A DNA stretch of 64,000 nucleotides from Betaproteobacteria bacterium HGW-Betaproteobacteria-1 (lineage in GTDB: Bacteria; Pseudomonadota; Gammaproteobacteria; Burkholderiales; Methylophilaceae): contig PHCX01000003.1 in NCBI GenBank assembly GCA_002842435.1, positions 186,001 through 250,000 of the forward strand. The letters are read 5' to 3'. A program made the translations under genes and the position numbers. The notes under the pieces are model-generated. The model was not told where the DNA came from, did no database searches, and was given only the letters and a program-made list of their open reading frames with translations. Below, one piece after another: positions 22,875 to 45,626 of the stretch (position 1 is the first letter of the stretch; every line of letters starts with the position of its first letter).

Positions 22875-23855
22875 ATGATCGTAATTACCGGTGGCGCAGG
22901 CATGATAGGCAGTATGATCGCCTGGCACCTCAATCAAAATTCAGGCCGTGATGACATCGTCATCGTCGATCGCCAGCATCACCCTGAACAATGGCAGAAC
23001 CTGGTGCACAGACGCTATGCACACTATCTGGACAAGGATCAGTTGCTCGACTGGCTGAAGCAGGCCAAAAATATCGATGCCGTGATTCACATGGGTGCCA
23101 TCAGCGCCACCACCGAACGCGACTTCAACAAGCTGGTGCAGGACAACATCCAGTATTCCCAGGACCTGTGGTCGTGGTGTGCCGAACACAAGGTGCCTTT
23201 TCTCTATGCCAGTTCTGCTGCCACCTATGGCGGCGGCGAACAGGGTTACGAGGACGATGAAAGCCGGACCGACAGTTTCCGCCCATTGAATGGCTACGGC
23301 TATTCCAAGCAGTTCTTCGACCAGTGGGCGCTACGTCAAGTCAGCGAAGGCAAGCCTGTTCCGCCGCAATGGTGCGGTTTCAAGTTCTTCAATGTCTACG
23401 GTCCCAACGAATATCACAAGGAACGCATGGCCAGCGTGGCTTTCCACAGCTTCAACCAGTTCCGTGAACATGGCACGGTCAAGCTGTTCAAGAGCCATTT
23501 GCCTGAATACAAGGACGGCATGCAATTACGCGACTTCGTCTACGTCAAGGACGCCGCTGCGGTGGTCGCACATTTTCTGCAGAATCCCGAGCATTCCGGC
23601 ATCTATAATGTCGGCACCGGTCAGGCACGCGCCTTCAAGGATCTCGCTTCCGCAGTCATGACCAGCATGGGCAAGTCGCCGGACATCACGTTCATCGACA
23701 TGCCGGATGACCTGCAAGGCAAATATCAGTATTTCACCGAGGCCAACATGGACAAGGTACGAGCAACCGGCTACAGCCAGCCTTTCCATACGCTGGAAGA
23801 AGGTGTGTGCGACTATGTGCAGAATTACCTGCTGCAGGCAGACCCCTACGCCTAA
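22875..23855 (+). CDS. hldD: ADP-L-glycero-D-manno-heptose 6-epimerase
   Basis: A 326-residue extended short-chain dehydrogenase that epimerises ADP-D,D-heptose to ADP-L,D-heptose for the LPS inner core. The NAD(P) motif [15 protein letters not shown] is at the N-terminus; the catalytic [11 protein letters not shown] and the substrate-binding [18 protein letters not shown] are intact. It opens a heptose operon (hldD, gmhA, hldE, waaF) in which all precursor and transfer steps needed after sedoheptulose-7-phosphate are collected except gmhB, which is not in this stretch. Confidence 0.96.
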
Positions 23856-23898
23856 CCAGGCAAACATATGGCCGCCAAAATATAGAGGAACCAAGGAT

Positions 23899-24462
23899 TT
23901 GAATAACATTGAGAACCTGACTGTAGCACTCGCTGAACATCAGGATGTGATGAGCAAACTTGCCGCCATGCTGCCGCAGATCGCTGCCGTAGCAGATGAG
24001 ATGCGTGCCTGTATCGCCCGCGGCGGCAAGATCCTGCTGATGGGTAACGGCGGTAGCGCTGCCGACAGTCAGCACATCGCTGCCGAGATCGTCGGCCGCT
24101 ATAAAAAGGAACGCAAAGGCCTGCCGGCCATCGCACTGACAACCGACACCTCCATCCTGACCTCGGTCGGCAACGATTACGGCTACGAGTATATTTTCTC
24201 GCGTCAGGTTGAAGCGCTCTGTTCACCGCAGGATCTGGTCATCGGCCTCACCACCTCGGGCAACAGCCCCAACGTCGTGCGCGCAATCGAGACCGCCAAA
24301 CAGATCGGCGCCGTCACCGTTGGCATGACCGGCGGCAGCGGCGGCAAGCTCGCTGCGCTTTGCGACTACAATCTCATCATGCCATCGAGCGACACACCGC
24401 GCATTCAGGAAGCGCATATCTTCATTGGCCACAGCCTGTGTGATTTACTTGAAGCCGACTGA
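23899..24462 (+). CDS. gmhA: Sedoheptulose-7-phosphate isomerase
   Basis: A 187-residue SIS-domain enzyme converting sedoheptulose-7-phosphate to D-glycero-D-manno-heptose-7-phosphate. [16 protein letters not shown] and [10 protein letters not shown] form the phosphate sites, and the [19 protein letters not shown] end is typical. The start is a TTG at 23899 with AGAGGA upstream; no ATG lies in frame near the family start, and the frame continues backwards into hldD only by chance. Its stop overlaps the hldE start as TGATG. Confidence 0.95.
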
Positions 24463-25928
24463 TGCGTGAAAAACTGATTGAAACCGTAAAACATCGTTTT
24501 GCTACCAGCGACAAAACCGCGCTGGTCATCGGTGACCTGATGCTGGACCGTTACCTGATCGGTGAGGTAGAGCGCATTTCACCCGAGGCCCCCGTGCCGG
24601 TCGTGCTCTTGAAACAGGAGAACGAGCGCGCCGGCGGGGCCGCCAATGTCGCGGCCAATCTGTCGCTGCTTGGCATCAACAGCGTCATGGCCGGTGTCAT
24701 CGGCGATGACGCCGAGGGCCGCGCCTTGCTGGAGATGATGCAGGGATTGAATATCAGCAGCAGCGCGATTGTCACGTCACACCAGCGCCCGACCGTGACC
24801 AAGACCCGCATCCTCGGCGGCCATCAACAAATGATGCGACTGGACAAGGAAAGCCGGCTGACATTTACCGATACCGAAGCCAGCACACTGCTCAAACAGG
24901 TTTCACAAGCCATAGTGCAGAAACCTGCCGTAATCATCCTTTCGGATTACGCCAAAGGCGTGTTGAGCGACGAACTCTGCCAGGCGGTCATCGCGCAAGC
25001 CAAGGCACTGGGCATTCCGGTGCTGGTAGACCCGAAGGGGCGCGATTATTCGAAATACGAAGGCGCAACGGCCCTGACCCCGAACAAGAAAGAAACCTCC
25101 GAAGCCTGCGGCATAGATGCGTTGGACACCGAAAAGCTGCTACAGGCGGCAGCCAAGCTCAGGGATCAACTCAGTTTGGAGTTTCTTGCAGTGACCCGGG
25201 GGGAGGAAGGTATTTCCCTACTTGAGAAAAACGAGACCATCCACATTCCGGCAGCAGCGAAACAGGTGTTTGACGTTTCCGGCGCCGGCGATACCGTGAT
25301 CGCGACACTGGCCGCTGGCCTTATACATGGCTTGAGCCATCACCAGGCCTTCGAACTGGCCAACATCGCCGCCGGCATTGTGGTCGGCAAGGTTGGCACG
25401 GTACCGGTCAACCGCGAGGAACTGCTGGCAGAACTCATCTCGCAGGACTCGGTTGAACAGGCAGACAAAATCTGCGAACTGGACACTCTGCTTGTGCGTG
25501 TCAGACAGTGGAAACAACAGAAAAAGCGCATCGTGTTCACCAACGGCTGCTTCGACCTCTTGCATGCCGGCCATGTCACCTATCTGGAAGCGGCCAGAAA
25601 AACCGGCGACAAACTGATCCTGGGCTTGAACACCGATCGTTCGGTCAGCGCCTTGAAAGGCCCCAGCCGGCCGGTAATTCATGAAGCCGATCGTGCACGA
25701 GTACTAGCTGCGCTGGAAGCGGTCGATGCGGTCATCCTGTTCGACGAGGACACGCCATTGAAACTGATTGATGCCATCCGGCCTGACATCATCGTCAAGG
25801 GTAGCGATTACAGCGAAGATCAGGTCATCGGTGGCAAGGAAGTCAAATCCTGGGGCGGCAAGGTCGCACTGATCGACATCGTGCCCGGCCGCAGCACCAG
25901 CAATATCATCGAGAAACTCGGGGCCTGA
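24462..25928 (+). CDS. hldE: Bifunctional heptose-7-phosphate kinase / heptose-1-phosphate adenylyltransferase
   Basis: A 488-residue fusion. The N-terminal ribokinase-type domain (about 1-330) has GGAANVAANLSLLG and the anion hole DVSGAGDTVIATLA. The C-terminal nucleotidyltransferase domain (about 350-488) has FTNGCFDLLHAGHVTYLEAA, with the HxGH motif, and ends KGSDYSEDQVIG...STSNIIEKL. It phosphorylates the heptose C1 and activates it with ATP. Overlaps at both ends (TGATG with gmhA and with waaF) indicate tight translational coupling. The fused form is the gamma/betaproteobacterial type found in E. coli. Confidence 0.97.
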   Translation: MREKLIETVKHRFATSDKTALVIGDLMLDRYLIGEVERISPEAPVPVVLLKQENERAGGAANVAANLSLLGINSVMAGVIGDDAEGRALLEMMQGLNISSSAIVTSHQRPTVTKTRILGGHQQMMRLDKESRLTFTDTEASTLLKQVSQAIVQKPAVIILSDYAKGVLSDELCQAVIAQAKALGIPVLVDPKGRDYSKYEGATALTPNKKETSEACGIDALDTEKLLQAAAKLRDQLSLEFLAVTRGEEGISLLEKNETIHIPAAAKQVFDVSGAGDTVIATLAAGLIHGLSHHQAFELANIAAGIVVGKVGTVPVNREELLAELISQDSVEQADKICELDTLLVRVRQWKQQKKRIVFTNGCFDLLHAGHVTYLEAARKTGDKLILGLNTDRSVSALKGPSRPVIHEADRARVLAALEAVDAVILFDEDTPLKLIDAIRPDIIVKGSDYSEDQVIGGKEVKSWGGKVALIDIVPGRSTSNIIEKLGA

Positions 25929-26929
25929 TGCGCATTCTGGTAATAGGCCCGTCTTGGGTTGGCGACATGGTATTGGCGCACAGCCTGTTCCAGGTCATCA
26001 AGCAGCAACAGCCGGATTCCATCATTGATGTTGCAGCCCCGGCCTGGACCATCCCTTTACTGGACCGCATGCCCGAAGTCAGCGGCAAGATCGCGCTGCC
26101 GTTCAAACATGGCCGACTGGACTTACGCGAACGCATCCGCTTGGGGAAATCGCTGAAAAATGCTGCCTACGACCAGGCCATCCTGCTGACCAATTCCTTC
26201 AAATCCGCGATTCTGCCCTTCGCCGCCAACATCCCGCTGCGCACCGGATTCCGTGGCGAAATGCGCTATGGCTTGCTGAACGATATCCGCTCGCTCGACA
26301 AAAAGGCGCTCCCACGTACGGTCGACCGCTTCGTCGCGCTCGGCCTCAAGAAGGACCAGCCGCTTCCAGCCACCATTCCCAACCCGAGACTGATTGCCGA
26401 TGCTTCTCAGGCGGTTGAGGCCCTCGACAAACTTGGGAAAGAACTGCCGGATGTTCCGGTGCTGGGTTTGTGCCCCGGAGCTGAATATGGCGAAGCAAAG
26501 CGCTGGCCGGCCGAATATTATGCCGAGGTAGCCAGGCAGGCACTGGAGAAAGGCTGGCAGGTCTGGCTGTTCGGTTCGGAAAAGGATGTACCGGTCACCG
26601 GCAGCATTAATCAGATGACGAAGAACCGGTGCCTCGATCTGGGCGGAAGAACCCGGCTGGGTGAAGCCATCGACCTGATGTCGCTCTGCCAAACGGTGGT
26701 CAGCAACGACTCCGGCCTGATGCATGTCGCGGCCGCCCTCGGCCGAAAAGTGATTGCAGTCTACGGATCGTCCGACCCGCACCACACGCCACCGATGAGT
26801 CCAGAGGCCGTCGTGCTCTGGCTTGGACTTGATTGCAGCCCATGTTTCAAACGCATATGTCCACTCGGCCATCTCAACTGTCTCAAACAACTCGCACCGG
26901 ACCGCGTGCTGCAGGAAATCGCCCTGTAG
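25928..26929 (+). CDS. waaF: ADP-heptose:LPS heptosyltransferase II
   Basis: A 333-residue GT9 enzyme that adds the second heptose to the LPS inner core on the cytoplasmic face of the inner membrane. MRILVIGPSWVGDMVLAHSL is the family opening; the donor site includes LGLCPGAEYGEAKRWP and the C-terminal VVSNDSGLMHVAAALGRKVI. The start overlaps the hldE stop as TGATG. It ends the heptose operon; the downstream membrane protein starts 24 bp later and may be read through. Confidence 0.95.
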   Translation: MRILVIGPSWVGDMVLAHSLFQVIKQQQPDSIIDVAAPAWTIPLLDRMPEVSGKIALPFKHGRLDLRERIRLGKSLKNAAYDQAILLTNSFKSAILPFAANIPLRTGFRGEMRYGLLNDIRSLDKKALPRTVDRFVALGLKKDQPLPATIPNPRLIADASQAVEALDKLGKELPDVPVLGLCPGAEYGEAKRWPAEYYAEVARQALEKGWQVWLFGSEKDVPVTGSINQMTKNRCLDLGGRTRLGEAIDLMSLCQTVVSNDSGLMHVAAALGRKVIAVYGSSDPHHTPPMSPEAVVLWLGLDCSPCFKRICPLGHLNCLKQLAPDRVLQEIAL

Positions 26930-28512: not shown

Positions 28513-29235
28513 TCAACTTATGAGGTGTACACCGCATCTGTTTATCGAGAGTTTCGGATAGCGACGCGCTGCATCGGCAGGCCCATGCTCCAGTCGTTGC
28601 AGACAATCGAGCGGCTTCGAAAAATCCAACCGGTCGAGCACATCAACTGGAAAATCCCACCAGCATATGACCTCTAGCCTTGTAATCCAATCGTCCGGAA
28701 ATCGATACCGCACCACTCTGGCCGGAATGCCGGCAACGACTGCATAGGCAGGCACATCGGATGTCACCACGGAGCGTGCGGCAACAATGGCGCCATTACC
28801 GATATGAACCCCATTCATGATGCAGGCATCCCTTCCTATCCAGCAATCATGGCCGATCGTGACATCAGAACGTGCGGAAGAATTAGCCTGCCGATACTTT
28901 TCGGTCAACACAGAGTTGTAAAGCGAGGTACTGAGCCAGTCCATCGGATGCTCATGCCGGTCAAGACCGATAATGACATTGTTACCTATCGAGCAGAAGC
29001 GGCCAATGGAAGAAACCGCATAAAGCTCGCATCCACTCCTCAGATAGCTGTAGGCGCCGATTTCCAGCTTGTCACACTTGATCACAACTGCACCACCAAT
29101 GCTGACTTGCGGCTCTAACAGCAATTGGCTGTCACGCCCCAATTGACGTACGCCGCCGGAAAGCTTGCATCCATGCCGGCGCATAAGCCGAGCACCACAG
29201 AGATCATGCCATGCAGCGGCCAGTCGCTTGATCAT
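28513..29235 (-). CDS. Hexapeptide-repeat acetyltransferase (LbetaH)
   Basis: A 240-residue left-handed beta-helix acyltransferase of the WbbJ/CapG kind. Repeated hexads are visible (SIGGAVVIKCDKLEIGAYSY, SIGRFCSIGNNVIIGLD) and the acetyl-CoA site DVTIGHDCWIGRDACIMNGV holds the catalytic histidine. It probably O-acetylates a surface sugar. Its ATG overlaps the stop of the upstream DUF6625-like gene in an ATGA junction (29232-29235), so the two are translated together. It is convergent with the GT39-like gene. Confidence 0.85.
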   Translation of the reverse strand: MIKRLAAAWHDLCGARLMRRHGCKLSGGVRQLGRDSQLLLEPQVSIGGAVVIKCDKLEIGAYSYLRSGCELYAVSSIGRFCSIGNNVIIGLDRHEHPMDWLSTSLYNSVLTEKYRQANSSARSDVTIGHDCWIGRDACIMNGVHIGNGAIVAARSVVTSDVPAYAVVAGIPARVVRYRFPDDWITRLEVICWWDFPVDVLDRLDFSKPLDCLQRLEHGPADAARRYPKLSINRCGVHLIS

Positions 29236-30089
29236 GCTATGACAATTCCATCAGCCGAAATGATAACCCGCCGGTTTGCCAGATCGTCCACTGACGGCAG
29301 TGTACGGCCAGTCCAGTTCCGCTTCCATACCATGAAGTGAAAGTAGGGATAAACTCGATTCTCAAGGCTGGAGTTGCTGATCCTGCCATCCTGCCAGTAC
29401 CACTCGACCGGATAATCCCGGCTGCCATCTGTCCATGGAATCTTGCCGTTCGGCGTCGTGTAAGCCTCGATAAATTCAGCACGCCTTAACCATGGGTCGC
29501 ACTGGGCTGCCAGCCAACGCACCCAGGACGCCGAGTTCTTATGGCGCAGAAATATCTTTGAAAATGCACTCTCATCGAAAGCCAGATGTTCGGGCGATTC
29601 CAATCTGAACTGCCAGTGCTTGACTCGCATGAAAGCCGTCCGCATTTCCTCGGTATTACGAATCAAACAAAGATGACCGGAAATCCTGCGCGCGTGTGTG
29701 GAGAACAGATCAAATCGTGCAAGACGCTCGGCAGTAAAATAGGCCCTCAAATCACCATAGAGCAAGTCGAGATCACCAAAACCCCAGAAATCATATCCTG
29801 CAAGCTCTTCGGCATGAATCAAACCAAGCGCAGGCTTGATATCGCAAAGTTTGTAGGGTTGATCCGGATGAAAGTCAATGTGCAAGGCTCCCGCTACACG
29901 TTGACAATAATCCTGATAACTGACGGTCACCACACGAACATTCGATGGACACCTCTCCGGTTGACCGCAATCGCTGTACAACAGCCAGCCAATATCGGGA
30001 TTCGCACGGCAACTTTCGAGAAAATATGGCATCCAGAAAGGCCAACGGCCAAAATATGGAATGACGATAGCAATGCCAGGATTTTTCAT
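29232..30089 (-). CDS. DUF6625-like putative glycosyltransferase
   Basis: About 285 residues. The start IAIVIPYFGRWPFWMPYFLESC and the motif FWGFGDLDLLYGDL, which contains a D-x-D, look like a GT-A nucleotide-sugar binding site; the protein resembles the DUF6625 family of polysaccharide clusters. It would be a cytoplasmic transferase acting on surface polysaccharide, but no substrate can be assigned. ATG 30089 (MKNPG) is preferred; the frame extends nine codons further. It overlaps the downstream acetyltransferase by 4 bp. Composition is A+T-rich for this window (28 G+C in the 60 bases from 29761). Confidence 0.6.
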   Translation of the reverse strand: MKNPGIAIVIPYFGRWPFWMPYFLESCRANPDIGWLLYSDCGQPERCPSNVRVVTVSYQDYCQRVAGALHIDFHPDQPYKLCDIKPALGLIHAEELAGYDFWGFGDLDLLYGDLRAYFTAERLARFDLFSTHARRISGHLCLIRNTEEMRTAFMRVKHWQFRLESPEHLAFDESAFSKIFLRHKNSASWVRWLAAQCDPWLRRAEFIEAYTTPNGKIPWTDGSRDYPVEWYWQDGRISNSSLENRVYPYFHFMVWKRNWTGRTLPSVDDLANRRVIISADGIVIA

Positions 30090-30148
30090 ATACACAAGTA
30101 CATCATGCCTTGGCACTTGATTGGGTTCGAATCATTTCTGCTCATTCC

Positions 30149-32194
30149 TCAGGACTTGCCATTGATCATGTAATCCAGTTGAGGCTGCAATTTTCGACCC
30201 AGCCACTTCGACCCATCAAGCGACAAATGATCATCATCGCGATATAACAACAAATCATCCTTTCGTCCGTAACAACGTTCATCATCACACATCAGAGTTT
30301 GGGGATCGAGCACGCCCACTTGCGGATGTCTTTTGAGCACATTATCAATCACATGACGAAATTCCAGATTTCTTTTTTCTATCATATCCATATCCACAGC
30401 GCAGTCAGGATGCGGTGCCGAACGCTTTACAAACTGATTAGGCGCCCATGTCAAACATAGTCTCGCATTGAAATCCAGTTCAGGAACCGAATACAGAAAA
30501 ACCACTTTCTTGCCTTTTGCCTCAAGCGCACTCAATGTTTCATCCAAGCCATGTTCAAGTGCAGCAGCGCCAATATACGGACTCTGTTTCCCTTCCCTGT
30601 CGAACCATACAACCTGATGTTCGTCACGATTTCCAGTATGCCAGTCCCTGAGTTCGCGCCCTGATATGTAAGCAGCCCATCGCCCTGCGATAAAAACGGT
30701 GTGAACATCCGAATTTTCCAAAGCATATTCCATGGCAGCATCAATATGCTGCGGGCAACCGAGAAATTTTCCATCTTCTAACAAATCGCTGCCACGCACT
30801 CCCATGCATGCCGCACTGGCAATCTGTAACAAATTCAGATTCTGCTGCAGTAAAACGTCACGCAACGCCCAGAAGTAATAATTGGCATGACTATCCCCTA
30901 TGATCATAGCGTTAGCAGGTCTTTCTACATCTGCGACCAGACATAGTCCGCTTAATCCGTGCTTTTTGAAAACTGCACTGCAATCCTGCGTACTCTTCAA
31001 CTCATTCGGCCACTCAAGTGCAATAGCTTCGTTCTGCAACTGTCCGTCTTTAAACCTGAACAACAGGCCATCTCTAATGAATATATTTGCTGCAGCTACT
31101 GCCAGCACACTCGCAAACAAAAGCAGGAGAATTACAGCTTTTCGTCCTCCATGCCGCCTGATAGGCGTTTCGATAAACCGATAACTGAACCACGCAAACA
31201 GGAAGGTCAATGCAAGTATGGCCCCAATGACAATTGAGTTCTGAGACTGCCCTGGATAGACGATACGTGCGAAAGATAGCAATGGCCAATGCCACAGATA
31301 TAACGGAAAACTGATCAGCCCTATCCACACCATGAGCGGCTTGGCAAGAAAGTAACGATTAATCAGTGCTCCTGGTCCCGCTGCGATCAGAAACATTGCA
31401 CCCGCAACGGGCAAAAGTGCCCAAGTTCCAGGAAATATGCTTTTTGTATTGATCAAACCGAACCCGGCAAGAAGCAACCCAAAACCAAAAATGGAAAACA
31501 GATTTCCGGCAGCCGTATTTGTCACACACCAGTTCAATCGATGATTAAAAACCAGCCAGGCAAGGCATGCTCCCGCCAGCAACTCCCAAGCTCGAGTCAA
31601 AGGCAGGAAAAAACTGGCAATCGGGTCCGGACGGGTCAGGAAAATACTAGCCAGGAGCGAAAGCACCGCCAACAAAAGCATGAACCGGCCTATTCTCCAA
31701 CCACGCTTCCAGGCGAAGACAGCCAAAGCTGGCCAGACAATGTAGAACTGCTCCTCGATGCCAAGCGACCATAAATGCAAAAGCGGTTTTAACTCCGCCG
31801 CATTATCGAAATACCCAGACTCCAGCCAGAAAACAAAATTGGCCATAAACCCCAAACCGGCTAATGAGTGTTTTGCCAGTTGTGCGTACTCATCCGGCAG
31901 CAACACATGCCAGCCGACAACAAGAAAGACCAATATAACCAGCAACAAAGGTGGAAATATACGTCTTATTCTGCGCGCATAAAAATCCGAGAAACTGAAT
32001 TTTCCACCGTGCAGAGAATTGAAAATTATGGAAGAAATAAGATATCCGGATATTACAAAAAAGATATCAACCCCAATGAACCCACCTGGCAGCATGGAGG
32101 GGAACGCATGAAATACCAGCACTGATAAAACTGCAATAGCACGCAGCCCGTCTATATCGGGGCGATAGGCAAGATGAGGGTTTGAGTGATTCAT
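30149..32194 (-). CDS. OafA/YrhL-type acyltransferase with SGNH domain
   Basis: A 681-residue O-acetyltransferase. Residues 1 to about 370 are the ten-helix acyltransferase-3 domain, starting YRPDIDGLRAIAVLSVLVFH with the catalytic histidine and GGFIGVDIFFVISGYLI. Residues about 400-680 are a periplasmic SGNH hydrolase-like domain with block I NAMIIGDSHANYY and the late DDDHLSLDGSKW catalytic pair. Such two-part enzymes acetylate O-antigen or other envelope glycans. The DNA is A+T-rich (26 to 27 G+C in two sampled lines of 60), suggesting acquisition from another lineage. Confidence 0.88.
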   Translation of the reverse strand: MNHSNPHLAYRPDIDGLRAIAVLSVLVFHAFPSMLPGGFIGVDIFFVISGYLISSIIFNSLHGGKFSFSDFYARRIRRIFPPLLLVILVFLVVGWHVLLPDEYAQLAKHSLAGLGFMANFVFWLESGYFDNAAELKPLLHLWSLGIEEQFYIVWPALAVFAWKRGWRIGRFMLLLAVLSLLASIFLTRPDPIASFFLPLTRAWELLAGACLAWLVFNHRLNWCVTNTAAGNLFSIFGFGLLLAGFGLINTKSIFPGTWALLPVAGAMFLIAAGPGALINRYFLAKPLMVWIGLISFPLYLWHWPLLSFARIVYPGQSQNSIVIGAILALTFLFAWFSYRFIETPIRRHGGRKAVILLLLFASVLAVAAANIFIRDGLLFRFKDGQLQNEAIALEWPNELKSTQDCSAVFKKHGLSGLCLVADVERPANAMIIGDSHANYYFWALRDVLLQQNLNLLQIASAACMGVRGSDLLEDGKFLGCPQHIDAAMEYALENSDVHTVFIAGRWAAYISGRELRDWHTGNRDEHQVVWFDREGKQSPYIGAAALEHGLDETLSALEAKGKKVVFLYSVPELDFNARLCLTWAPNQFVKRSAPHPDCAVDMDMIEKRNLEFRHVIDNVLKRHPQVGVLDPQTLMCDDERCYGRKDDLLLYRDDDHLSLDGSKWLGRKLQPQLDYMINGKS

Positions 32195-32258
32195 TTTGGA
32201 AATACGAGCTCTGAAATTAATTCTTGTTAAACTGGATGGCTAGCTGATCACCGGAAAC

Positions 32259-33362
32259 CTACGGCTCGTTCTGCATAACATCTTTCAAATAAGGCAAAGC
32301 CCAGAAATGCACACTGGCAGCTTCGTCACTAAACTTGGCACGCAGCGATTGGCAATGTAGATCGAAATCGTACTCGCCCCACTGCGACATGGCAGTCAAC
32401 ACTTCGGCAAACTCGCTTGCATTACCTAAGCGAAAAAGCATTCCCGCATCCCTGACCACCTCGGCCCCGCCGCCGCTGTCACTGCAAATAATCGGCAATC
32501 CGGCCGCCATCGCCTCCAATAACACCATGCCGAACGGCTCGTGATCCGAAGTCAGTGCGAACACATCAAATGCACGGAAGTATCTGCGACCATTGGGCAC
32601 CTGGCCGGCAAACACCACTTTGTCTGTAACGCCCAGTGCTGCTGCGAGATTTTTCAATGCCTGCTCCAGCGGACCTGAACCCATGATCAGCAACAGGCTA
32701 TTCTGCGGCAGTTTAGGCAGCGCCATGGCAAAGCCGCGGATCAGGGTTGCCTGATCCTTGTCGTGATGCAGACGCCCGACATTGCCGACCACCCAAGCAT
32801 CGGCGGGCAGGCCGAGAAATTCGCGTGCCTCATTTTTGCTCAACAGTTCGGCTTGCACAGCATCCACATCGATACGGTTGTACAGTGTCTCGATCTGCTC
32901 ATGCGGCCAATGCGGCAACCTGATGCGCATTTCGTCACGCACTGCGTTGGAAACGCCCAACAACAACAGACGCTTGCGGAACAGATTCACCAGCAGACGT
33001 CGACCATATCGATCAAAGTCACCAAAGTTGTGACGCACGCTGATCACTGGCAGGCGGGTAGCCAGCAAGGCAACATAAGTTGGCTTGGCGCGATGGGCGA
33101 TGCAGAAACGAAACTCTTTTTCAGCAACGATCTGCCGGATTTTTCTGATGGCGCCCAGTTTCAGTCCGCTGACATCCTTGCTTTTATAGCCGAGGAAAAT
33201 CACCTCATCGGAAGCGGTAGCTCGTTCCACCTCTGGATCGGGCTCCCCGGTGAGATAGACCGTCGTCACCTTGATGCCGGTGCCTTTGAACAGGGCGGCG
33301 TACTGGCGTGAACAATCGAGGAATGGCGGGTAATAGCAGTGGCTGATCTGCAGGACGTTCAA
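32259..33362 (-). CDS. Glycosyltransferase family 4
   Basis: A 367-residue GT-B enzyme of the type found in surface-polysaccharide clusters. LQISHCYYPPFLDCSRQYAA is the N-terminal domain; VVGNVGRLHHDKDQATLIRG and SDHEPFGMVLLEAMAAGLPI carry the donor-site residues and E-x7-E motif. The start is taken as a TTG at 33362: AGGAG sits 8 bases upstream and the codon overlaps the galE stop (TTGA), whereas the longer frame to 33404 would run inside galE. Sugar specificity is unknown. Confidence 0.82.
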   Translation of the reverse strand: MNVLQISHCYYPPFLDCSRQYAALFKGTGIKVTTVYLTGEPDPEVERATASDEVIFLGYKSKDVSGLKLGAIRKIRQIVAEKEFRFCIAHRAKPTYVALLATRLPVISVRHNFGDFDRYGRRLLVNLFRKRLLLLGVSNAVRDEMRIRLPHWPHEQIETLYNRIDVDAVQAELLSKNEAREFLGLPADAWVVGNVGRLHHDKDQATLIRGFAMALPKLPQNSLLLIMGSGPLEQALKNLAAALGVTDKVVFAGQVPNGRRYFRAFDVFALTSDHEPFGMVLLEAMAAGLPIICSDSGGGAEVVRDAGMLFRLGNASEFAEVLTAMSQWGEYDFDLHCQSLRAKFSDEAASVHFWALPYLKDVMQNEP

Positions 33363-34366
33363 ATATTCTTCTCCTGCGCTTGTGCTACCATTTTCAGCTC
33401 CCATTGCCAGGCATGCCGGATAATGGTTTCAAGGTCAGAATGGACTGGCACCCACTGCAGTACACTTTTTGCCCGGGAGGCATCTGCCACCAGCCTTGCC
33501 GGGTCACCCTCCCGGCGTCCGGCCAACTCGAATGGCACTGGCTTTCCCGTTACCCTGGCTGCGACATCGATGACCTGCTGTACGCTGTAACCAGCACCAT
33601 TTCCCAGATTGAACGCAGTCGGCTGCCCTCCACCATGCAGATACTGCATGGCAAGCAGATGGGCACTGCACAGGTCTTCCACATGAATATAGTCACGAAT
33701 GCAGGTGCCGTCCGGCGTGTCGTAATCCTGGCCGAAAAGCTTGAGCGGCGGTTTCTGGCCGAGCACCGCCTTCAGTGCCAGGGGGATGAGGTGTGTCTCC
33801 GGTTCATGCCGCTCGCCCAGAAGCCCTTCCGCATCGGTTCCGGCGGCATTGAAATAGCGTAAAGCGACGTAATTCAGCCCATGCGCACGCTGAAAATCGG
33901 ACATCATCATTTCCACCATGAGCTTGGATGCCCCATAAGGATTGACCGGCACCTTGGGGTGCGCCTCGTCTATCGGGGTTGATTGCGGCTCGCCATACAC
34001 TGCAGCTGTGGAAGAAAACACCAGATGATTGAGACCGTGGTCGCGCATGGCTTCCAGCAAGGTCAGCGTAGCGAAACTGTTGGCTCGGTAGTATTTGGCC
34101 GGATTGCTGACCGACTCGCCTACCAGTATCTTTGAGGCAAAATGAAAGACCCCGTCAAAGTTTTTTTCTGTGATCAGCTGATCGAGAAACGCACGGTCAG
34201 AGAAATCATGAACGATCAATTCACCACCCAGCACAGCATCACGGTGACCGCTGGACAAGTCATCGACGATGGTCACCTGATGCCCTTGCTTGAACAGCAG
34301 TTTGACCATGTGCGAGCCGATATAGCCTGCCCCGCCGGTTACCAGATAGTGCATATTCTTTTCCAT
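33359..34366 (-). CDS. galE: UDP-glucose 4-epimerase
   Basis: A 331-335-residue extended SDR enzyme. MHYLVTGGAGYIGSHMVKLL is the NAD site; the catalytic pair is in FSSTAAVYG and NPYGASKLMVEMMM; YFNAAGTDAEGLLGE and the C-terminal half bind the UDP-sugar. It interconverts UDP-glucose and UDP-galactose, or the N-acetylated forms, and supplies the adjoining glycosyltransferases. The ATG at 34354 (MHYL) is also possible. Its stop overlaps the start of the next GT4 gene. Confidence 0.93.
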   Translation of the reverse strand: MEKNMHYLVTGGAGYIGSHMVKLLFKQGHQVTIVDDLSSGHRDAVLGGELIVHDFSDRAFLDQLITEKNFDGVFHFASKILVGESVSNPAKYYRANSFATLTLLEAMRDHGLNHLVFSSTAAVYGEPQSTPIDEAHPKVPVNPYGASKLMVEMMMSDFQRAHGLNYVALRYFNAAGTDAEGLLGERHEPETHLIPLALKAVLGQKPPLKLFGQDYDTPDGTCIRDYIHVEDLCSAHLLAMQYLHGGGQPTAFNLGNGAGYSVQQVIDVAARVTGKPVPFELAGRREGDPARLVADASRAKSVLQWVPVHSDLETIIRHAWQWELKMVAQAQEKNI

Positions 34367-34447: not shown

Positions 34448-35125
34448 TTATGATGCAAAGACTGAAATTTTCTTCAGGTGTTGGCGCAGACGATCCTCGC
34501 ATGCCGGACGCAATGCCGCATGGTCGAAATAGGACGCTACAATTTTCTGCCATGTTGCCAGACGCAGTTCACGTACCTGCTCAGGGTACCGATGCAGGTG
34601 GGTAAAACTTCGGACTCTCGTTCCGCACCACAAGGGCCATGGGTAAATGCTCATGTCAGCAATATCGATGAGGCCAAGCCTTCCCTGCGTATCCAGCACG
34701 ATATTACCCAGATGCAGTGAGCGGAAATGCACACCATGCCGGTGTAATTTCGCGATGAATGTACCCAGCATGTTGGCCTCATCCATCGTCAACGACCTGC
34801 TCTTCAGCAATTCGCGCAAAGTCACACCCTCCAGCGGCGCATAGAGCACAGCCGTCTCGGCTGGCGCTTCCAGATCAAAGAGTTGCTTGATATGAACGGT
34901 CGGGATGCCAGCCTTCTGCAATCGCGCTGCATTACGGCAGAATCGTCTGGCATAGGAATAAATGCGGGCGACACTGAATCTGTTCCGGACCCGGAACACC
35001 TTCAGCATATCGCCATTTTCCAGACGGAGCACTTTGATGCCGCGCTCGTCCTGCTCCAGGACAGCGCCTTTCTGGCACATCTGGTCAAACTCCGACCTGT
35101 CGAGCAACTGGCTTTTACGCATCAT
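34448..35125 (-). CDS. Kinase-fold protein, LPS-kinase/toluene-tolerance type
   Basis: A 225-residue protein kinase-like fold related to the lipopolysaccharide kinase clan; Pseudomonas homologues are sometimes labelled toluene tolerance proteins and lie beside core-LPS genes. The ATP lysine is probably in GDMLKVFRVRN. The catalytic loop reads VHFRSLHLGNIVLD: the usual aspartate is replaced by serine while the asparagine is kept, and LIDIAD supplies the metal-binding aspartate. It may therefore be inactive or use a variant mechanism. It overlaps the upstream HAD phosphatase gene by an ATGA junction, a strong hint that they work as a pair. Confidence 0.7.
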   Translation of the reverse strand: MMRKSQLLDRSEFDQMCQKGAVLEQDERGIKVLRLENGDMLKVFRVRNRFSVARIYSYARRFCRNAARLQKAGIPTVHIKQLFDLEAPAETAVLYAPLEGVTLRELLKSRSLTMDEANMLGTFIAKLHRHGVHFRSLHLGNIVLDTQGRLGLIDIADMSIYPWPLWCGTRVRSFTHLHRYPEQVRELRLATWQKIVASYFDHAALRPACEDRLRQHLKKISVFAS

Positions 35126-38557: not shown

Positions 38558-40276
38558 TCAGGACTTAGTGACCAACACGTCTTCCATCATCAAATATTCC
38601 AGGTCACAACCATAGAACATGTTAAGCGCATCGGTCGGACTGCAGATCATGGGTTCACCTCGTCTGTTGAGCGAGGTGTTCAACACCACAGGCACGTTGC
38701 GCAATCTTTCCAATTCCTCAATCAGCGCGTAATAACGCGGGTTGGTCGCCTTGGTTACCACCTGCGCACGCGCCGTGCCGTCCTCATGGACCACTTCGGG
38801 AATGCGTGACTTCCAGTGCTCTGCAACATCGAATGTAAATGTCATATAGGGTGCGGGGTGATCCGTCTGCAGGATATCCTCAGCCACCCTATCCAGCATG
38901 CTGGGACAGAACGGACGCCAGCGTTCGCGATATTTGATCTGCGCGTTGATGCGATCGGCTACGCCGGAATGACTGGGATCGCCAAGAATACTGCGGCATC
39001 CCAGGGCACGCGGGCCGAATTCCATGCGTCCCTGAAACCAGGCCAGCGGATTGCCGTTCGCCAGGATCTCGGCTGCCTTTTCCGGCGCGTTCTCGACTCG
39101 GGTGAATTTGGGCTTGGCCGGATGCACTTCGCAGGCTGCCAGACATTCTTCGGTCGTAAAGGCAGGGCCAAGATAGGCGTGCTGCATAGGCTCAACCTGC
39201 TCGCCCATCTGTGCGGCAACAAAGGTAGCAGCACCCAGTGAAGTACCGGCATCGCCGGAAGCCGGTTGTACAAACAGCTCCTTGACGCCCGGCATATTGA
39301 TGATGCGCTGGTTCAGCTTGACGTTGAGCGCCACGCCGCCCGCCATGGCAATGCGCCCGGTCTCACGGATAATGTCGCCGACGTAATAATCGATCATCTC
39401 CAGCGCCACGTCTTCCAGCAACTGCTGCACCGAAGCCGCGTAGTGGATGTAAGGGTCGTCGATCTCGTCACCCTGCCGCTTGGGGCCGAGCCATTCGATC
39501 AACTCGGGCGTAAAGTAATAACCCTTGCCGTTTTCCTTGTAGCGACGCAGGCCCACCACATTGACCAGCCTGGTGTTGACGCGCAGGTCGCCATCCTTGA
39601 ATTGCACCAGTCGCGACAAGTCATATTTGCTGGCATCACCATAAGGCGCCATGCCCATGACCTTGAATTCGCCGTCCAGCATCTCGAAGCCGAGATACTC
39701 GGTAATTGCACCATACATGCCACCGAGCGAATCCGGGTCGTAGAACTCCTTGATCTTGTGGATCTTGCCGTTTTCACCATAGCCGAAAAAGGTCGTAGCA
39801 TATTCGCCCTTGCCGTCAATGCCGACGATGGCAGTCTTTTCCTTGAAACCGCTCAGGTGATAGGCGGAACTGGCATGCGCCATGTGATGCTCGACCGGCA
39901 CATATCTGGCCTTGCTCAGGCCCAGCTCAGCCATCAGGGCCAAAGCCTTGTCACGATTGCGGCGGAACCGGCGGTTGCCGTTGAATATGGCATCCAGCGC
40001 GCGATCCGGCGCATACCAGTGACGCTTGGCATAATGCCAGCGCGCTGCTGAACTGATGGGAATTTCGCCATAAGGGAAAGTCACGATATCCACCTGGTCA
40101 GGACACACACCGGCTTCCTTCATGCAGTATTTGGCTGCCTCGTAGGGAAAGAGGTTTTTGGCATGTTTGTCACGGATAAAACGCTCTTCTTCCGCCGCGG
40201 CAACGATCTTGCCATCAACCAGAATCGCGGCCGAGGCATCGTGCCCCAGCGCACCGGATAAACCTAGAATAATCAT
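38558..40276 (-). CDS. Carbamoyltransferase, NodU/CmcH family
   Basis: A 572-residue two-domain enzyme using carbamoyl phosphate and ATP to carbamoylate a hydroxyl through a carbamoyl-adenylate. The N-terminal ASKHA-like domain starts MIILGLSGALGHDASAAILV and has VEHHMAHASSAYHLSG with metal-binding histidines; the C-terminal domain contains FGPRALGCRSILGDP and NTSLNRRGEPM. The family includes NodU and CmcH, but its place after four LPS core genes suggests that it carbamoylates a core heptose, as the WapO protein does in Pseudomonas aeruginosa. The acceptor is inference. CarAB in this window makes the donor. Confidence 0.9.
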   Translation of the reverse strand: MIILGLSGALGHDASAAILVDGKIVAAAEEERFIRDKHAKNLFPYEAAKYCMKEAGVCPDQVDIVTFPYGEIPISSAARWHYAKRHWYAPDRALDAIFNGNRRFRRNRDKALALMAELGLSKARYVPVEHHMAHASSAYHLSGFKEKTAIVGIDGKGEYATTFFGYGENGKIHKIKEFYDPDSLGGMYGAITEYLGFEMLDGEFKVMGMAPYGDASKYDLSRLVQFKDGDLRVNTRLVNVVGLRRYKENGKGYYFTPELIEWLGPKRQGDEIDDPYIHYAASVQQLLEDVALEMIDYYVGDIIRETGRIAMAGGVALNVKLNQRIINMPGVKELFVQPASGDAGTSLGAATFVAAQMGEQVEPMQHAYLGPAFTTEECLAACEVHPAKPKFTRVENAPEKAAEILANGNPLAWFQGRMEFGPRALGCRSILGDPSHSGVADRINAQIKYRERWRPFCPSMLDRVAEDILQTDHPAPYMTFTFDVAEHWKSRIPEVVHEDGTARAQVVTKATNPRYYALIEELERLRNVPVVLNTSLNRRGEPMICSPTDALNMFYGCDLEYLMMEDVLVTKS

Positions 40277-40320
40277 GCTTCAGGACTCACTGACTTCTTC
40301 AATTAAATTCAGACCACTGC

Positions 40321-41799
40321 TCAAACCTGCAGCGCTTTGGCCAGCAGGGGATGGTCACCATATGTTTTTTGCAAAGCCCCTATCAGCGACTGCTGAACGT
40401 CCGGCTGATCCCGCCAGTTCCGCAACAGACGCTTCAGGTCGCGCACATGGCTCGTTTCAAACCAAACCTTGCATCGAAATTCGCGCAAACTGTCCAGATC
40501 AATCAGTACTGGCCAGCCGCCATCAATATGGATGTTGCTGGCCTTGAGATCGCCATGCGCAATCTGCAGCAACATCAGCTTATACATAAGCCTGGCCAAC
40601 GCTTCCAGCCCCGATTTTTTCTGTTTATCCGTGACAGAAGTCGATTGCAACCACTGCGCAACATCCGGCGTGGCAATATAGTCGGCGATAAAATATGCCC
40701 GGCCCCGCAACGGCCCGAACCTCTGCTCCAGCAGCGCCACAGGAGCTGGCGTGGCGACACCGTACATCAGCAGACGATGGGCGTTGCTCCATGAATCGGC
40801 TGCCCTGCTCGAACGCCAGAACCGGCCCAACCAGTGCCAGAAACTTTTGATATTGTACCGTTTTACGACCAACTTTCGGCCATTGATTTCTGCCAGCGCC
40901 ACGGTACAGGTATTGCCGTTCTTCAGGCGTTGTCTGCTGATATCCTCGACCAGGGCATCAGGCGTGGCGAGCAACATCTGTTGCAGCTGTGCGTTGGGAT
41001 TTTGCCGCGACATGGCCAGAAAATGGCGCCAACTGCGGGACACCATGACGTCCGTGCATTGCCTCAAGACCTTCTTTTCGGCATAGGATCGTACTGCGCG
41101 TCGCCTGTAATGAGCGATGCGTGATTGCATCTGTTGCTCGTCAGGGCAATTCCCCCAACCACGACCAGCGGCATACGCCTGCAGCAAAGACGGCACCCAA
41201 GCCTGGATTTCCAGCACATCGAATTTGGATAGTAGCAGGGCCAGATTGCCGAGTGCCGTCCGCCTTGCTAAAAACTGTGGCAAAGGCTTGATGGCATCGC
41301 CATCCAGGGTGTAGAGCTTTTCACCCAGCACAAGAAAGTTCTTCAGGTAGAGGTCGGTCTGCAACAAGCCAGCATTATGGTGAGCCGCTATTTCCGCAAC
41401 CAGCTTCATGGCCAGGCCCAGCCTCTGATGATCGGTACACTGTTGCCAGGCCTGTTCCGCATTCATGGCATCATCGATTGCAGCGTAGACCAGCACCCGG
41501 CCGGTAGCGGCAAGATTCTCAGCAGCGATATCCGCAGAGTGCAGCAAGGCAGGGGTCGCGATACCGGCCTTAATTAGCCTGCCTACCCCTTCCGCGTCGC
41601 GCGCAGCATAGCGTTGCGCCTGTGAGCCGATGAATATCTTGGCGTAAATGGACTGGCCATTCCAGACTCCGCGGCACACCAGTCGCTTATTGGGTACAAC
41701 CCGGACGACACGAAGATCATGCAGTTGACCGGCATCTGCCAACGATAGATCGAATGGCGCAGCTGCAGCCTCGCGAGACAGCTGAAAAAGATCAACCAT
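40321..41799 (-). CDS. Double kinase-fold protein of the LPS core locus
   Basis: About 492 residues with two kinase-like domains. The first (about 1-235) has YAKIFIGSQ as ATP lysine, the catalytic loop LLQTDLYLKNFLV and LDGDAI. The second (about 265-492) has KLVVKRYNIKS, the loop IAHGDLKASNIHIDG and VLIDLDSL. Both keep the D-x4-N pair and the metal aspartate, so both could be active. A similar long protein sits near WapP and WapQ in the P. aeruginosa core locus. Likely role: phosphorylation of core heptoses. ATG 41799 lies 15 bases past the upstream stop; the frame is open to 41880. Confidence 0.75.
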   Translation of the reverse strand: MVDLFQLSREAAAAPFDLSLADAGQLHDLRVVRVVPNKRLVCRGVWNGQSIYAKIFIGSQAQRYAARDAEGVGRLIKAGIATPALLHSADIAAENLAATGRVLVYAAIDDAMNAEQAWQQCTDHQRLGLAMKLVAEIAAHHNAGLLQTDLYLKNFLVLGEKLYTLDGDAIKPLPQFLARRTALGNLALLLSKFDVLEIQAWVPSLLQAYAAGRGWGNCPDEQQMQSRIAHYRRRAVRSYAEKKVLRQCTDVMVSRSWRHFLAMSRQNPNAQLQQMLLATPDALVEDISRQRLKNGNTCTVALAEINGRKLVVKRYNIKSFWHWLGRFWRSSRAADSWSNAHRLLMYGVATPAPVALLEQRFGPLRGRAYFIADYIATPDVAQWLQSTSVTDKQKKSGLEALARLMYKLMLLQIAHGDLKASNIHIDGGWPVLIDLDSLREFRCKVWFETSHVRDLKRLLRNWRDQPDVQQSLIGALQKTYGDHPLLAKALQV

Positions 41800-41813
41800 G
41801 CGCAAAAGACGGC

Positions 41814-42617
41814 CTAAACCGCCACTTCCTGCTGATGCTGCCTCTTGGGCTTCCGGCTCCTGCTGATCACCAACCGGCATAGCAGTTTGGACCAGAACCC
41901 GAGTTTCTCGACGCCAAGATACTGCTTGAAGAAATACAGCCGCGTGGTGCGGCTCAGACCGGCGATATCCCGATTCAGCGTTGCCAGGTCACGACGGGTA
42001 CGCGAGAGCGGAAAGAGCTTGATGCGGGCTTTCTCGAAATCGATAATCACGGCCTTGGGTGCATCAGGATTCACCATATTGACCAGCAGATGCTTGGAAT
42101 GCAGCGCACGATGCTGTACACGCGCTTCGTGCAAACTCCTGACCGCCTTCGCGGCACAAGCGATCACGGCCTGTTTCTGCCTGCGCGTGTAAGCCGGATT
42201 AAGCAATACCTCTTTGGCCACGCGATCGACTGAGCGGTAACCCAGCAGTTCTTCCGTCATCAGGATCGCCTGGGCGCCTTCTGCCGATGACTTCTGACCA
42301 AAAAACACCAGGGTCGGTACCGGCACGCCATGGTTCTGCAGGTGGCGGATCGTTTTGTACTCGCAGGAAAAAGTCGCAACGCCGGAAAACGGGTGCATAA
42401 AAGTACGACGGATGTAGTTCTGCTGGCGCTTGAGGAACAAGCCCAACTGACCACCATCCGGCAGATCAAGCACCAGCCGGTTCACCCCGCTCCAGCCGCC
42501 ACGGCCCTGATTCGGTGATTCGAACCAGTCACCGCGATAATTCCAGAGATGGTCAAAATCGCCGAGCTGATTCGCTTCAAGCTGGTTTTTTAATGTGGAT
42601 GAAATGTAGGCTTGCAA
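41814..42617 (-). CDS. InaA/WapP-like LPS core kinase
   Basis: A 267-residue member of the lipopolysaccharide kinase clan. The glycine-rich loop region GWSGVNRLVLDL, the lysine in LGLFLKRQQNYI, and LMTEELLGYRSVD are visible. The catalytic loop is VQHRALHSKHLLV, in which the usual aspartate is alanine, as in many InaA-type proteins, while VIIDFEKAR retains the metal aspartate. Its place between waaP and the double kinase gene suggests phosphorylation of a second core position, or a supporting role if it is inactive. It starts 9 bp after the waaP stop. Confidence 0.78.
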   Translation of the reverse strand: MQAYISSTLKNQLEANQLGDFDHLWNYRGDWFESPNQGRGGWSGVNRLVLDLPDGGQLGLFLKRQQNYIRRTFMHPFSGVATFSCEYKTIRHLQNHGVPVPTLVFFGQKSSAEGAQAILMTEELLGYRSVDRVAKEVLLNPAYTRRQKQAVIACAAKAVRSLHEARVQHRALHSKHLLVNMVNPDAPKAVIIDFEKARIKLFPLSRTRRDLATLNRDIAGLSRTTRLYFFKQYLGVEKLGFWSKLLCRLVISRSRKPKRQHQQEVAV

Positions 42618-42626
42618 GGGGACCTC

Positions 42627-43469
42627 TTACCAGATATTTGTTTCAGGCATTTTGCCATGAAATTTCAAATAGAGTTTGTCCGCCCGGCTTGCCACCTGTT
42701 GCCAAAACCCGGCTTCGTCCAACAGGGTTTCTTTCAATGGCTGGCGACGATAATGTTTGAGAAAACGCAGGTAATCGCGCTTGCCGAGGCCGGCTTCCAT
42801 GGCCGAAAAATAGAGGGCGGCCATATCCTTCATGCGATCGACCGGACGGATCTGCGGACGAATACCGACGCGGTGCAGATCGATCAGGTATAGACACAGT
42901 TCGCCGGATGCAAGCTTCTGATTATCCAGGCAAATATGGCAGATATAAAAATCCCGGTGATTCATGCCGCCGTCGTGCAGCTTGCGCGCCAGTTCCGCAA
43001 CCTCGATCAGCAGCTTGCGCTTGAATGCCGGTTCCGGCGGATTGCTTTTCCAGTCGGCACACAAGGTCTCCAGTGAAACAATATCGCCCAGATCCTCGGT
43101 CATCAGAAAGGATTGCAGGGTCGCGGGATTCAACCCGCGCACCCCATAGGCCACCGCTGGCGTGGTAGGGATACCGATTTCACCCAGTTTCCGGATAGCC
43201 TGCCATTCGGTTTCCGCCGTCAGTACCGGCCATTTGGCACTTAACAGGTTCTTGAATATCTCGCGCCAACCGACACCGAAATGCTGCTTGACGAAGTAGA
43301 ACTTGCCGCCGATGCGCACGCGTATGGTCTTGCGGCCGGGCACATCGCGAAACACCTCGCCATGCAGTTGCATGATGCTGTCGAACGGATCCTGATCGAC
43401 GAAGAACTGATGCAGCCAGTGCGGCGCTTCCATGTGCTGACGAGCCCACATCAGCGGCCGGCTCCACAT
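42627..43469 (-). CDS. waaP: LPS core heptose (I) kinase
   Basis: A 280-residue RfaP/WaaP kinase that phosphorylates the first heptose of the inner core, a modification that stabilises the outer membrane and is essential in Pseudomonas aeruginosa. It shows RKTIRVRIGGKFYFVKQHFG (with the ATP lysine), SFLMTEDLGDIVSLE, the catalytic loop MNHRDFYICHICLD with the aspartate kept, and LYLIDLHRVGIR. The ATG at 43469 overlaps waaG by 19 bp; ATG 43433 (MEAPHW) is an alternative start. Part of waaG-waaP-kinase-kinase-carbamoyltransferase. Confidence 0.93.
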   Translation of the reverse strand: MWSRPLMWARQHMEAPHWLHQFFVDQDPFDSIMQLHGEVFRDVPGRKTIRVRIGGKFYFVKQHFGVGWREIFKNLLSAKWPVLTAETEWQAIRKLGEIGIPTTPAVAYGVRGLNPATLQSFLMTEDLGDIVSLETLCADWKSNPPEPAFKRKLLIEVAELARKLHDGGMNHRDFYICHICLDNQKLASGELCLYLIDLHRVGIRPQIRPVDRMKDMAALYFSAMEAGLGKRDYLRFLKHYRRQPLKETLLDEAGFWQQVASRADKLYLKFHGKMPETNIW

Positions 43470-44608
43470 TTCTTCTCGGCGACTTCGATCAACACCCGGG
43501 CTTCCGCACTGCCGTCATTCGCCGCCATGACTTGACGTGCATGTGCCAAACCATTGCGGCTCCATTGCTCACGCTCCGCGCTCTGCATCATCTGCAGGAA
43601 AAGCCGGTTAAATTCGTCCTGGTCAAAAGGACTGCTCGCGACCAGCCCGGCCTGCGCCTCGGCCACATGAAAAGCGTAGCCGCAAGTAGCTGTCACCAGT
43701 GTCGGCAAACCGCTGGCCAGCGCTTCCAGTATCACCAGTCCGGTATTCTCCCGATAGGCAGGATGCACATAGACATCCGCACCCTGCATCAGGTCCGGAA
43801 TATCCGGCCGGCCTTTGGAAATAGTCACCTGACGCTCAACTCCGAGCTTCTGCGCCATTTGCATGAAAGGCTTGGGATTGTCCTGACCCACGGCTACCAA
43901 GCGGGTGGTCGCCAGCTTGTCCTGCGGCAGGCTGGCCATGGCATGGATCGCCCGATCCAGACCCTTCATGGAAAACCCGGAACCGACCAACAGATAGACG
44001 AAATCCTCGTCGCCAAAACCAAAAGTCTGCCTCAGATGTTGGCGCATTGCCGCTTTGTCCTTGGCTACAAAGCGCTCCGCAGACAGGAACGGCGGAATGA
44101 AATGGAAACGGGCATCCTGCGTCTGATACCACTTCTGGAAATAGCCTTTTTCGATATCGGATAGCAACAGGATATGAGTCGCGGCCTGCGGCTGGAAAAT
44201 GGCTTCCTCGCATTGCGCGAACCAGCGGTAACGCGGCGTCAGCCGATAGAGCCAGCTTCGCTGCGCATGCGCCCGCTCGATGAAGCAGGGATCGGCCGCG
44301 AAATAGACATCCAGGCCCGCCATGCGATTGAAGCCGACAACAAGATCGAAAGCTTTGCCGTCTGCGGCATCCTGCGCGATATGCTGATGCGCCTGGGCGA
44401 TAAAACGCCGGTATTTGGTGTAATTGAAAACACCTTGCGCCGGAATGACATGCACCTTGATCTCAGCCTCAGGCAGGTCGCCATCCCACGAGATCGTGAA
44501 AATCTCGACCTGATGGCCTCTGCTGGTGACTTCCCGGGCGATGCGCAGCATGTCGCGTTGCATGCCTCCGAAGGGAAAATACTTGAAAATCAGGAATGCA
44601 AACTTCAA
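43451..44608 (-). CDS. waaG: LPS core glucosyltransferase I
   Basis: A 385-residue GT4 enzyme adding the first outer-core hexose to heptose II. FAFLIFKYFPFGGMQRDMLR is characteristic of WaaG, with LVGSGFSMKGLDRAI and YRENTGLVILEALASGLP forming the donor site. A TTG at 44608 is chosen as start: the longer frame to 44704 would run back into waaC coding sequence, and the TTG sits exactly at the usual N-terminus. It is divergent from waaC with about 50 bp between, so one short control region serves both. Confidence 0.92.
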   Translation of the reverse strand: MKFAFLIFKYFPFGGMQRDMLRIAREVTSRGHQVEIFTISWDGDLPEAEIKVHVIPAQGVFNYTKYRRFIAQAHQHIAQDAADGKAFDLVVGFNRMAGLDVYFAADPCFIERAHAQRSWLYRLTPRYRWFAQCEEAIFQPQAATHILLLSDIEKGYFQKWYQTQDARFHFIPPFLSAERFVAKDKAAMRQHLRQTFGFGDEDFVYLLVGSGFSMKGLDRAIHAMASLPQDKLATTRLVAVGQDNPKPFMQMAQKLGVERQVTISKGRPDIPDLMQGADVYVHPAYRENTGLVILEALASGLPTLVTATCGYAFHVAEAQAGLVASSPFDQDEFNRLFLQMMQSAEREQWSRNGLAHARQVMAANDGSAEARVLIEVAEKKCGAGR

Positions 44609-44657
44609 TCGACCATCTCGCTCAATAAAGGCCACATTGTATGCGAAAATGCCGCCT

Positions 44658-45626
44658 ATGCCTCGATTGCTCATCATCAAGACCACCTCTCTGGGTGACG
44701 TCATTCACAACCTGCCGGTCATCAACGACATCCGTACTCAGCATCCGGACATGGCGATTGACTGGGTAGTAGAAGAGAATTTCGCCGACATCCCGCGCCT
44801 GCATCCGGGCGTCGATAACGTGATGACGGTTGCCATGCGGCGCTGGCGCAAGCAGCCTTTTGCCGCGCAAACCTGGCGCGAGATTGCGGCACTGAAACAG
44901 CAACTGCAATCGCGGAATTACGACCTGGTGCTGGACACCCAGGGCCTGCTGAAAAGCGCCATGATCAGCCGACTGGCCAAAGCGCCACATCACGGCTATG
45001 ACCGCCATTCCATCCGCGAGCCGCTGGCTGCCTGCCTGTATAACAACAAGCACAAAGTCTCACGTGAGCAGCATGCCGTACCGCGCATCCGCCACTTGGC
45101 AGCACAGGCGCTGGGCTATCCCATGCCGGACAACTTGCCGGATTACGGCATCGCTGCTACAGCCGATATCTCGGCATTGCAATTGCCGCAAAATTTCGTT
45201 GTCGGCTTGCATGGCAGCAGCCGCGACTCCAAACTCTGGCCGGTAGATCACTGGATCGCGCTTGCCGCACAACTGTACACCAATGGCCTGGCACTGGTCC
45301 TGCCTTGGGGCTCACAGGCTGAGCATGAACGTGCGCTGGAGATTGCCGCAAAATCTGCGCAGGCCATCGTCCTGCCCAGGCTCGGACTGAACCAGCTCGC
45401 TGCCGTCATCGCCGCTGCGCACGCCGCCGTTGGTGTCGATACCGGCCTCATGCATCTGGCGGTCGCACTGAAGATACCCAGCGTCGCCATCTACACCGAC
45501 ACCGATCCGGCCCTGACCGGCATCTACCCGGGCGCCGGTAGCACCGCCGTCAATCTCGGCGGTCGCCAGCAGCTGCCAGGCGTCGATGAAATCAGCCGCT
45601 GCCTGGCTAATCATCAACTCATCTAA
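44658..45626 (+). CDS. waaC: ADP-heptose:LPS heptosyltransferase I
   Basis: A 322-residue GT9 enzyme adding the first heptose to Kdo. [20 protein letters not shown] is the typical opening; [16 protein letters not shown] and [20 protein letters not shown] form the donor-binding site. ATG 44658 fits the family; ATG 44649 is in frame just upstream. It is separated from the heptose operon at 22.9-26.9 kb, and divergent from waaG. The sigma-32 promoter of grpE starts 19 bp after its stop. Confidence 0.94.

Follow-up and report, generated by a model that had tools for sequence, protein, structure and literature searches.

A probable lipopolysaccharide core-decoration cassette of Methylophilaceae, orthologous to the Pseudomonas waaG-waaP-wapQ-PA5006-wapO genes

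Introduction

The closest described counterpart of the locus studied here is the lipopolysaccharide (LPS) core cluster of Pseudomonas, waaF-waaC-waaG-waaP-wapP-wapQ-PA5006-wapO (PA5012-PA5004), in which WapO is termed putative (PMC8005017). Two other groups of carbamoyltransferases are related to WapO. TobZ, the tobramycin O-carbamoyltransferase (PDB 3ven), has the same two-domain architecture and acts on an antibiotic, and the nodulation enzymes NodU and NolO belong to the same superfamily. Among the kinases, WaaP has been solved (6dfl), and P. aeruginosa WaaP carrying the D163A substitution supports no growth (PMC6147952).

We analysed a stretch of 64,000 nucleotides from the Methylophilaceae genome of Betaproteobacteria bacterium HGW-Betaproteobacteria-1 (contig PHCX01000003.1, positions 186,001 to 250,000), hereafter the window, and all positions refer to it unless stated otherwise. 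From waaG to wapO its cassette consists of orthologues of the Pseudomonas genes with their order unchanged, whereas waaC is divergent, waaF lies 12 kb away, wapP is unlinked, and edd-eda rather than wapH follows wapO. We put the probability at roughly 85% that the cassette is an inner-core LPS decoration set of Methylophilaceae, orthologous to Pseudomonas waaG-waaP-wapQ-PA5006-wapO.

Results

The preliminary description had reported waaG, waaP, an InaA-like gene, a double kinase-fold gene and a carbamoyltransferase gene running in one direction, divergent from waaC. Coordinates and profile matches agree with this layout: all six genes are real and stand at the positions in Table 1, five of them on the minus strand from 44608 to 38558. 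They are closely packed, with a 19-bp overlap between waaG and waaP and gaps of 9 bp between waaP and the InaA-like gene and of 44 bp between the PA5006-like gene and wapO. Between the InaA-like and PA5006-like genes there is either a 14-bp gap or an overlap, depending on whether the ATG at 41799 or the open frame from 41880 is taken as the start of the latter. The starts of waaG and waaC are 49 bp apart on opposite strands. A scan for promoters and terminators gave counts not clearly above those of shuffled sequences. A chance arrangement is excluded because almost every family locus that we examined, and Pseudomonas as well, shows this gene order.

Table 1. Features of the cassette and of other loci in the window.
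Feature	Position	Strand	Evidence and remarks
waaC, heptosyltransferase I	44658-45626	+	TIGR02193 equivalog, 385 bits (cut-off 185)
waaG, core glycosyltransferase	43451-44608	-	GT4 family domains; best start TTG; open frame to 44704
waaP, heptose(I) kinase	42627-43469	-	NF011703 equivalog, 367 bits (cut-off 170)
wapQ/inaA-like, kinase fold	41814-42617	-	Pfam Kdo 1.8e-33; TTG start; without HRD aspartate
Codon 171 (Ala) of wapQ-like gene	42105-42107	-	aligns with WaaP D163
PA5006 orthologue, double kinase-fold	40321-41799 or 41880	-	Pfam Kdo in C-terminal half
wapO orthologue, LPS-core carbamoyltransferase, 572 aa	38558-40276	-	PF02543 and PF16861, full length
PA4998-like kinase-fold protein	34448-35125	-	same strand as cassette, past edd-eda-HAD
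hldD, gmhA, hldE (ADP-heptose synthesis), waaF (heptosyltransferase II)	22875-26929	+	TIGR02197, TIGR00441, NF008454, TIGR02195

The proteins of the window were searched by tblastn against 80 named relatives, which gave the Pseudomonas order waaF-waaC-waaG-waaP-(wapP)-(inaA-like = wapQ)-PA5006-like-wapO, equal to the core gene order of PAO1 and DC3000 (PMC8005017). The waaG gene is syntenic with Pseudomonas waaG/wapG at 42–47% identity. The likeness to the Pseudomonas core cassette that had been proposed thus stands for orthology and order, with two corrections. The InaA-like gene is wapQ-like rather than wapP, because the Pseudomonas gene order places wapQ there, and wapP lies outside the cluster. 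Its orthologue, 53% identical to Pseudomonas WapP, belongs to the same contig and lies about 114 kb upstream of position 1 of the window (G000:C9:71397-72173); among the family genomes sampled, wapP was found in the genus of the window and in only three other genomes.

The position between waaP and the PA5006-like gene varies across the family. It is occupied by the InaA-like gene or, instead of or beside it (L131, L156, L168), by a sulfatase-fold enzyme of EptA build, a PMT-type enzyme of ArnT build, an LpxL-type acyltransferase, or a GT2 glycosyltransferase with a 2OG-Fe oxygenase. Several of these enzymes would be of a lipid A- or core-modifying kind. Elsewhere in the window, a minus-strand region of lower GC (28513-33404) encodes a hexapeptide acetyltransferase, a SucT-like acyltransferase and a glycosyltransferase, which may together form a set for surface glycan modification.

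The carbamoyltransferase had been assigned to WapO, and this identification was borne out. The protein is about 69% identical to Pseudomonas WapO, and the identities of its homologues are bimodal, at 69–100% or at 39% and lower, with none between. It matches TobZ at 5.7e-90 and keeps all the TobZ residues checked (H14, H114, H118, D137, D338, K443, R498 and S530), which we take to be the metal and carbamoyl-adenylate site. The checked site residues are kept in 126 of 126 WapO sequences; TobZ structure 3vf4 itself contains a serine-to-alanine change. In a tree with NodU (a gene beside nodS and nodI), NolO (beside nodZ), TobZ and chromosomal homologues, the WapO group, which includes the protein studied here, was separate from all of these, homologues of 35–39% identity included, with an SH-aLRT support of 99, and a careful tree with only chromosomal homologues as the outgroup recovered it at 100/100. 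We do not trust the branching order among the outgroups because some of their branches are very long. A NodU-type enzyme, the placement against which the preliminary description had proposed a phylogenetic check, is ruled out by the tree together with an NF041651 score of 153 bits against a cut-off of 1000.

The enzyme might nevertheless act, like NodU or TobZ, on some other glycan or metabolite, such as an O-antigen, an exopolysaccharide or a secreted product, its adjacency to core genes being incidental. The superfamily has many substrates, and some family genomes carry elsewhere a second copy that is 35–37% identical. We regard this alternative as very unlikely, given the strong membership in the WapO clade, the fact that wapO and the PA5006-like gene are neighbours in almost every family locus, and the co-occurrence of wapO with waaP as a block.

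That co-occurrence was assessed across genomes. At 70% or more, wapO was detected in 42 of 59 other Methylophilaceae genomes and in none of 40 genomes from elsewhere in the order; when the order was sampled more widely, it was found in 0 of about 291 genomes outside Methylophilaceae. The absence outside the family is not complete, because Aromatoleum evansii (Rhodocyclaceae) carries a wapO. The PA5006-like gene was present in all 43 wapO genomes, that of the window included, and in 0 of 57 others (Fisher 3e-29, uncorrected for kinship between genomes), and waaP in 41 of the 43, with both missing cases in incomplete assemblies, and likewise in 0 of 57. At the class level, where only the pair of wapO and the PA5006-like gene was covered, 16 of 273 other genomes had wapO, and the PA5006-like gene accompanied it in 15 of these 16 (G464 having a half-length match only) compared with 6 of 257 others; further genomes without wapO matched only the C-terminal kinase half of the PA5006-like protein. 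Within Methylophilaceae, waaP, the PA5006-like gene and wapO are gained or lost as a block. Carriers of the cassette include Methylotenera mobilis and Methylobacillus gramineus, both of which can be cultured. A special tie between wapO and PA5006 within the family, considered on the basis of co-occurrence, is weakened since waaP shows the same pattern.

Three sets of records deserve separate mention. In an OM43-like genus of small genomes (g15; L141-L143, L040), wapO matches at 72%, and waaP and the PA5006-like gene at only 24–29%. A contig assigned in its record to Candidatus Nitrosopumilus salaria, an archaeon (NZ_AEXL02000126.1, L035), carries the Methylophilaceae cassette and is almost certainly a contaminant. 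A record titled Pantoea sp. Ap-967 (NZ_VWXK01000021.1, L091) has a Pseudomonas-like arrangement of wapO and PA4998 and is probably misnamed.

The high identity of WapO to Pseudomonas and the near absence of wapO from the other families of the order could suggest a recent transfer of the entire cassette from Pseudomonas, the sense of import that the label "Pseudomonas-like" in the preliminary description might carry. The phylogenies point elsewhere. The wapO sequences of Methylophilaceae fall nearly all in one clade (100/99), separate from those of Pseudomonas, and the family is likewise grouped apart from Pseudomonas in the waaP tree (support 95) and, by one split, in the PA5006-like tree (79). 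The GC content of the cassette equals that of its surroundings, and a Pseudomonas-type wapO occurs only in the genus g12. Recent acquisition therefore appears extremely improbable, and the cassette is a trait of Methylophilaceae rather than a recent Pseudomonas import; an old transfer from some gammaproteobacterium is conceivable.

The exceptional genus g12 is informative in itself. In two of its genomes (G016 and G035; loci L145 and L144), wapO groups with Aromatoleum and Pseudomonas (100/100), whereas the contig that carries it has waaP and PA5006-like genes of the family type, and the sister genome G028 still has a family-type wapO. The best reading is a replacement of wapO in place. The presence of a Pseudomonas-type wapO in the native slot suggests that the two types of WapO are equivalent.

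The kinase-fold proteins of the locus divide by their catalytic residues. WaaP matches 6dfl at 1.2e-73, retains the HRDFYICH loop, and has the equivalents of K51, the HRD motif, H168 and D188; the HRD aspartate is present in all 91 aligned WaaP sequences. In the PA5006-like protein, encoded directly upstream of wapO, the lysine, the HxD/QxD aspartate, the asparagine and the DFG aspartate are found in both halves across about 130 relatives, with rare exceptions. By residue comparison, the active sites of WaaP, both PA5006 halves and WapO are intact.

The WapQ-like protein has no equivalent of D163. Its loop reads HRALHSKH, and the HRD aspartate is replaced by C, A or S in 70 of 70 aligned relatives; the kinase alignments contain some same-species sequences twice, and 66 of these relatives are non-redundant with a letter at the position. 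The equivalents of K51, E78, H161, H168 and D188 (the DFG aspartate) are invariant. The AlphaFold model (pLDDT 92.8) has the WaaP fold, with 6dfl as its best match among solved structures (TM 0.67/0.73), and the protein scores below the InaA equivalog cut-off (NF007383, 72 versus 235 bits). The PA4998-like protein shows the same feature: all 70 sequences that have a letter at the place of the HRD aspartate carry S, A or G. Its matches in the core locus of Pseudomonas, at 36–48%, lie downstream of wapO, and this gene ("toluene tolerance") is kept near the core locus in both Pseudomonas and Methylophilaceae.

Since the nucleotide- and metal-binding residues are kept and the catalytic base is missing, the WapQ-like protein would be a kinase that works by an unusual mechanism, or else would serve in binding or as a scaffold. 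The preliminary description had listed the InaA-like kinase among the genes behind a hyperphosphorylated core, an attribution undermined by the loss of the aspartate throughout its family; any hyperphosphorylation rests instead on WaaP, WapP and PA5006. Whether WapQ/InaA-like proteins are true heptose kinases with a different catalytic base seems to us evenly balanced. The invariant residues, the WaaP fold, and the LPS-related phenotypes reported for mutation of wapQ in P. aeruginosa (Walsh et al. 2000, cited in PMC8982409) speak for it; the substitution in every sequence and the failure of WaaP D163A to sustain growth speak against. The accessible part of a kinome survey (PMC1821047) allows replaced key residues generally and does not single out InaA, and our literature search found no description of InaA as a pseudokinase. 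More tentatively, and at clearly less than even odds, we suggest that WapQ/InaA and PA4998, whose annotation in Pseudomonas and in the window is that of LPS kinases, might be two conserved aspartate-less kinase-fold families that do not carry out canonical heptose phosphorylation; their role would be to bind the core during its synthesis or to modulate WaaP, PA5006 or WapO, with PA5006 as a near-obligate partner of WapO.

Discussion

The favoured reading of the cassette as an inner-core decoration set implies a pathway that can be outlined by analogy. The presence of hldD, gmhA, hldE and waaF indicates that HepI and HepII can be made; WaaC and WaaF would add them, and WaaG, a putative GalN or Glc transferase, would extend HepII. 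WaaP would phosphorylate HepI, while additional positions are probably phosphorylated by PA5006 and by WapP, encoded far away. WapO would convert carbamoyl phosphate and ATP into carbamoyl-AMP and carbamoylate a hydroxyl of a heptose; by comparison with Pseudomonas, this is most likely O-7 of HepII. Pseudomonas and TobZ are the source of the sugars, positions, chemistry and reaction order in this scheme; the positions targeted by the kinases may differ because the kinases of Methylophilaceae and Pseudomonas are only 30–50% identical. No Methylophilaceae core structure was found in the searchable literature. By this analogy, a core with a carbamate and extra phosphate is likely in this organism.

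Resistance conferred through cation crosslinking by such a core had also been suggested. Phosphate can bridge cations, and the O-carbamoyl group is uncharged, so the carbamate adds nothing to cation bridging. The group has been described as negatively charged in a study in which PA5005 mutations arose in colistin-resistant lines of P. aeruginosa (PMC10569645). Resistance through carbamoylation is not supported, because these mutations alone did not raise the MIC.

In summary, the gene set is ordinary and well conserved, except that one presumed kinase is without its key catalytic residue in all relatives examined. The missing aspartate in WapQ and PA4998 calls into question a kinase assignment repeated in the Pseudomonas literature. 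The gene PA5006, of unknown function, becomes testable as a partner of WapO, given their nearly constant co-inheritance, and the natural swap of wapO in one genus leads us to expect successful cross-complementation. With this locus, a modification of the core that is known from Pseudomonas would extend to a large family of methylotrophs.
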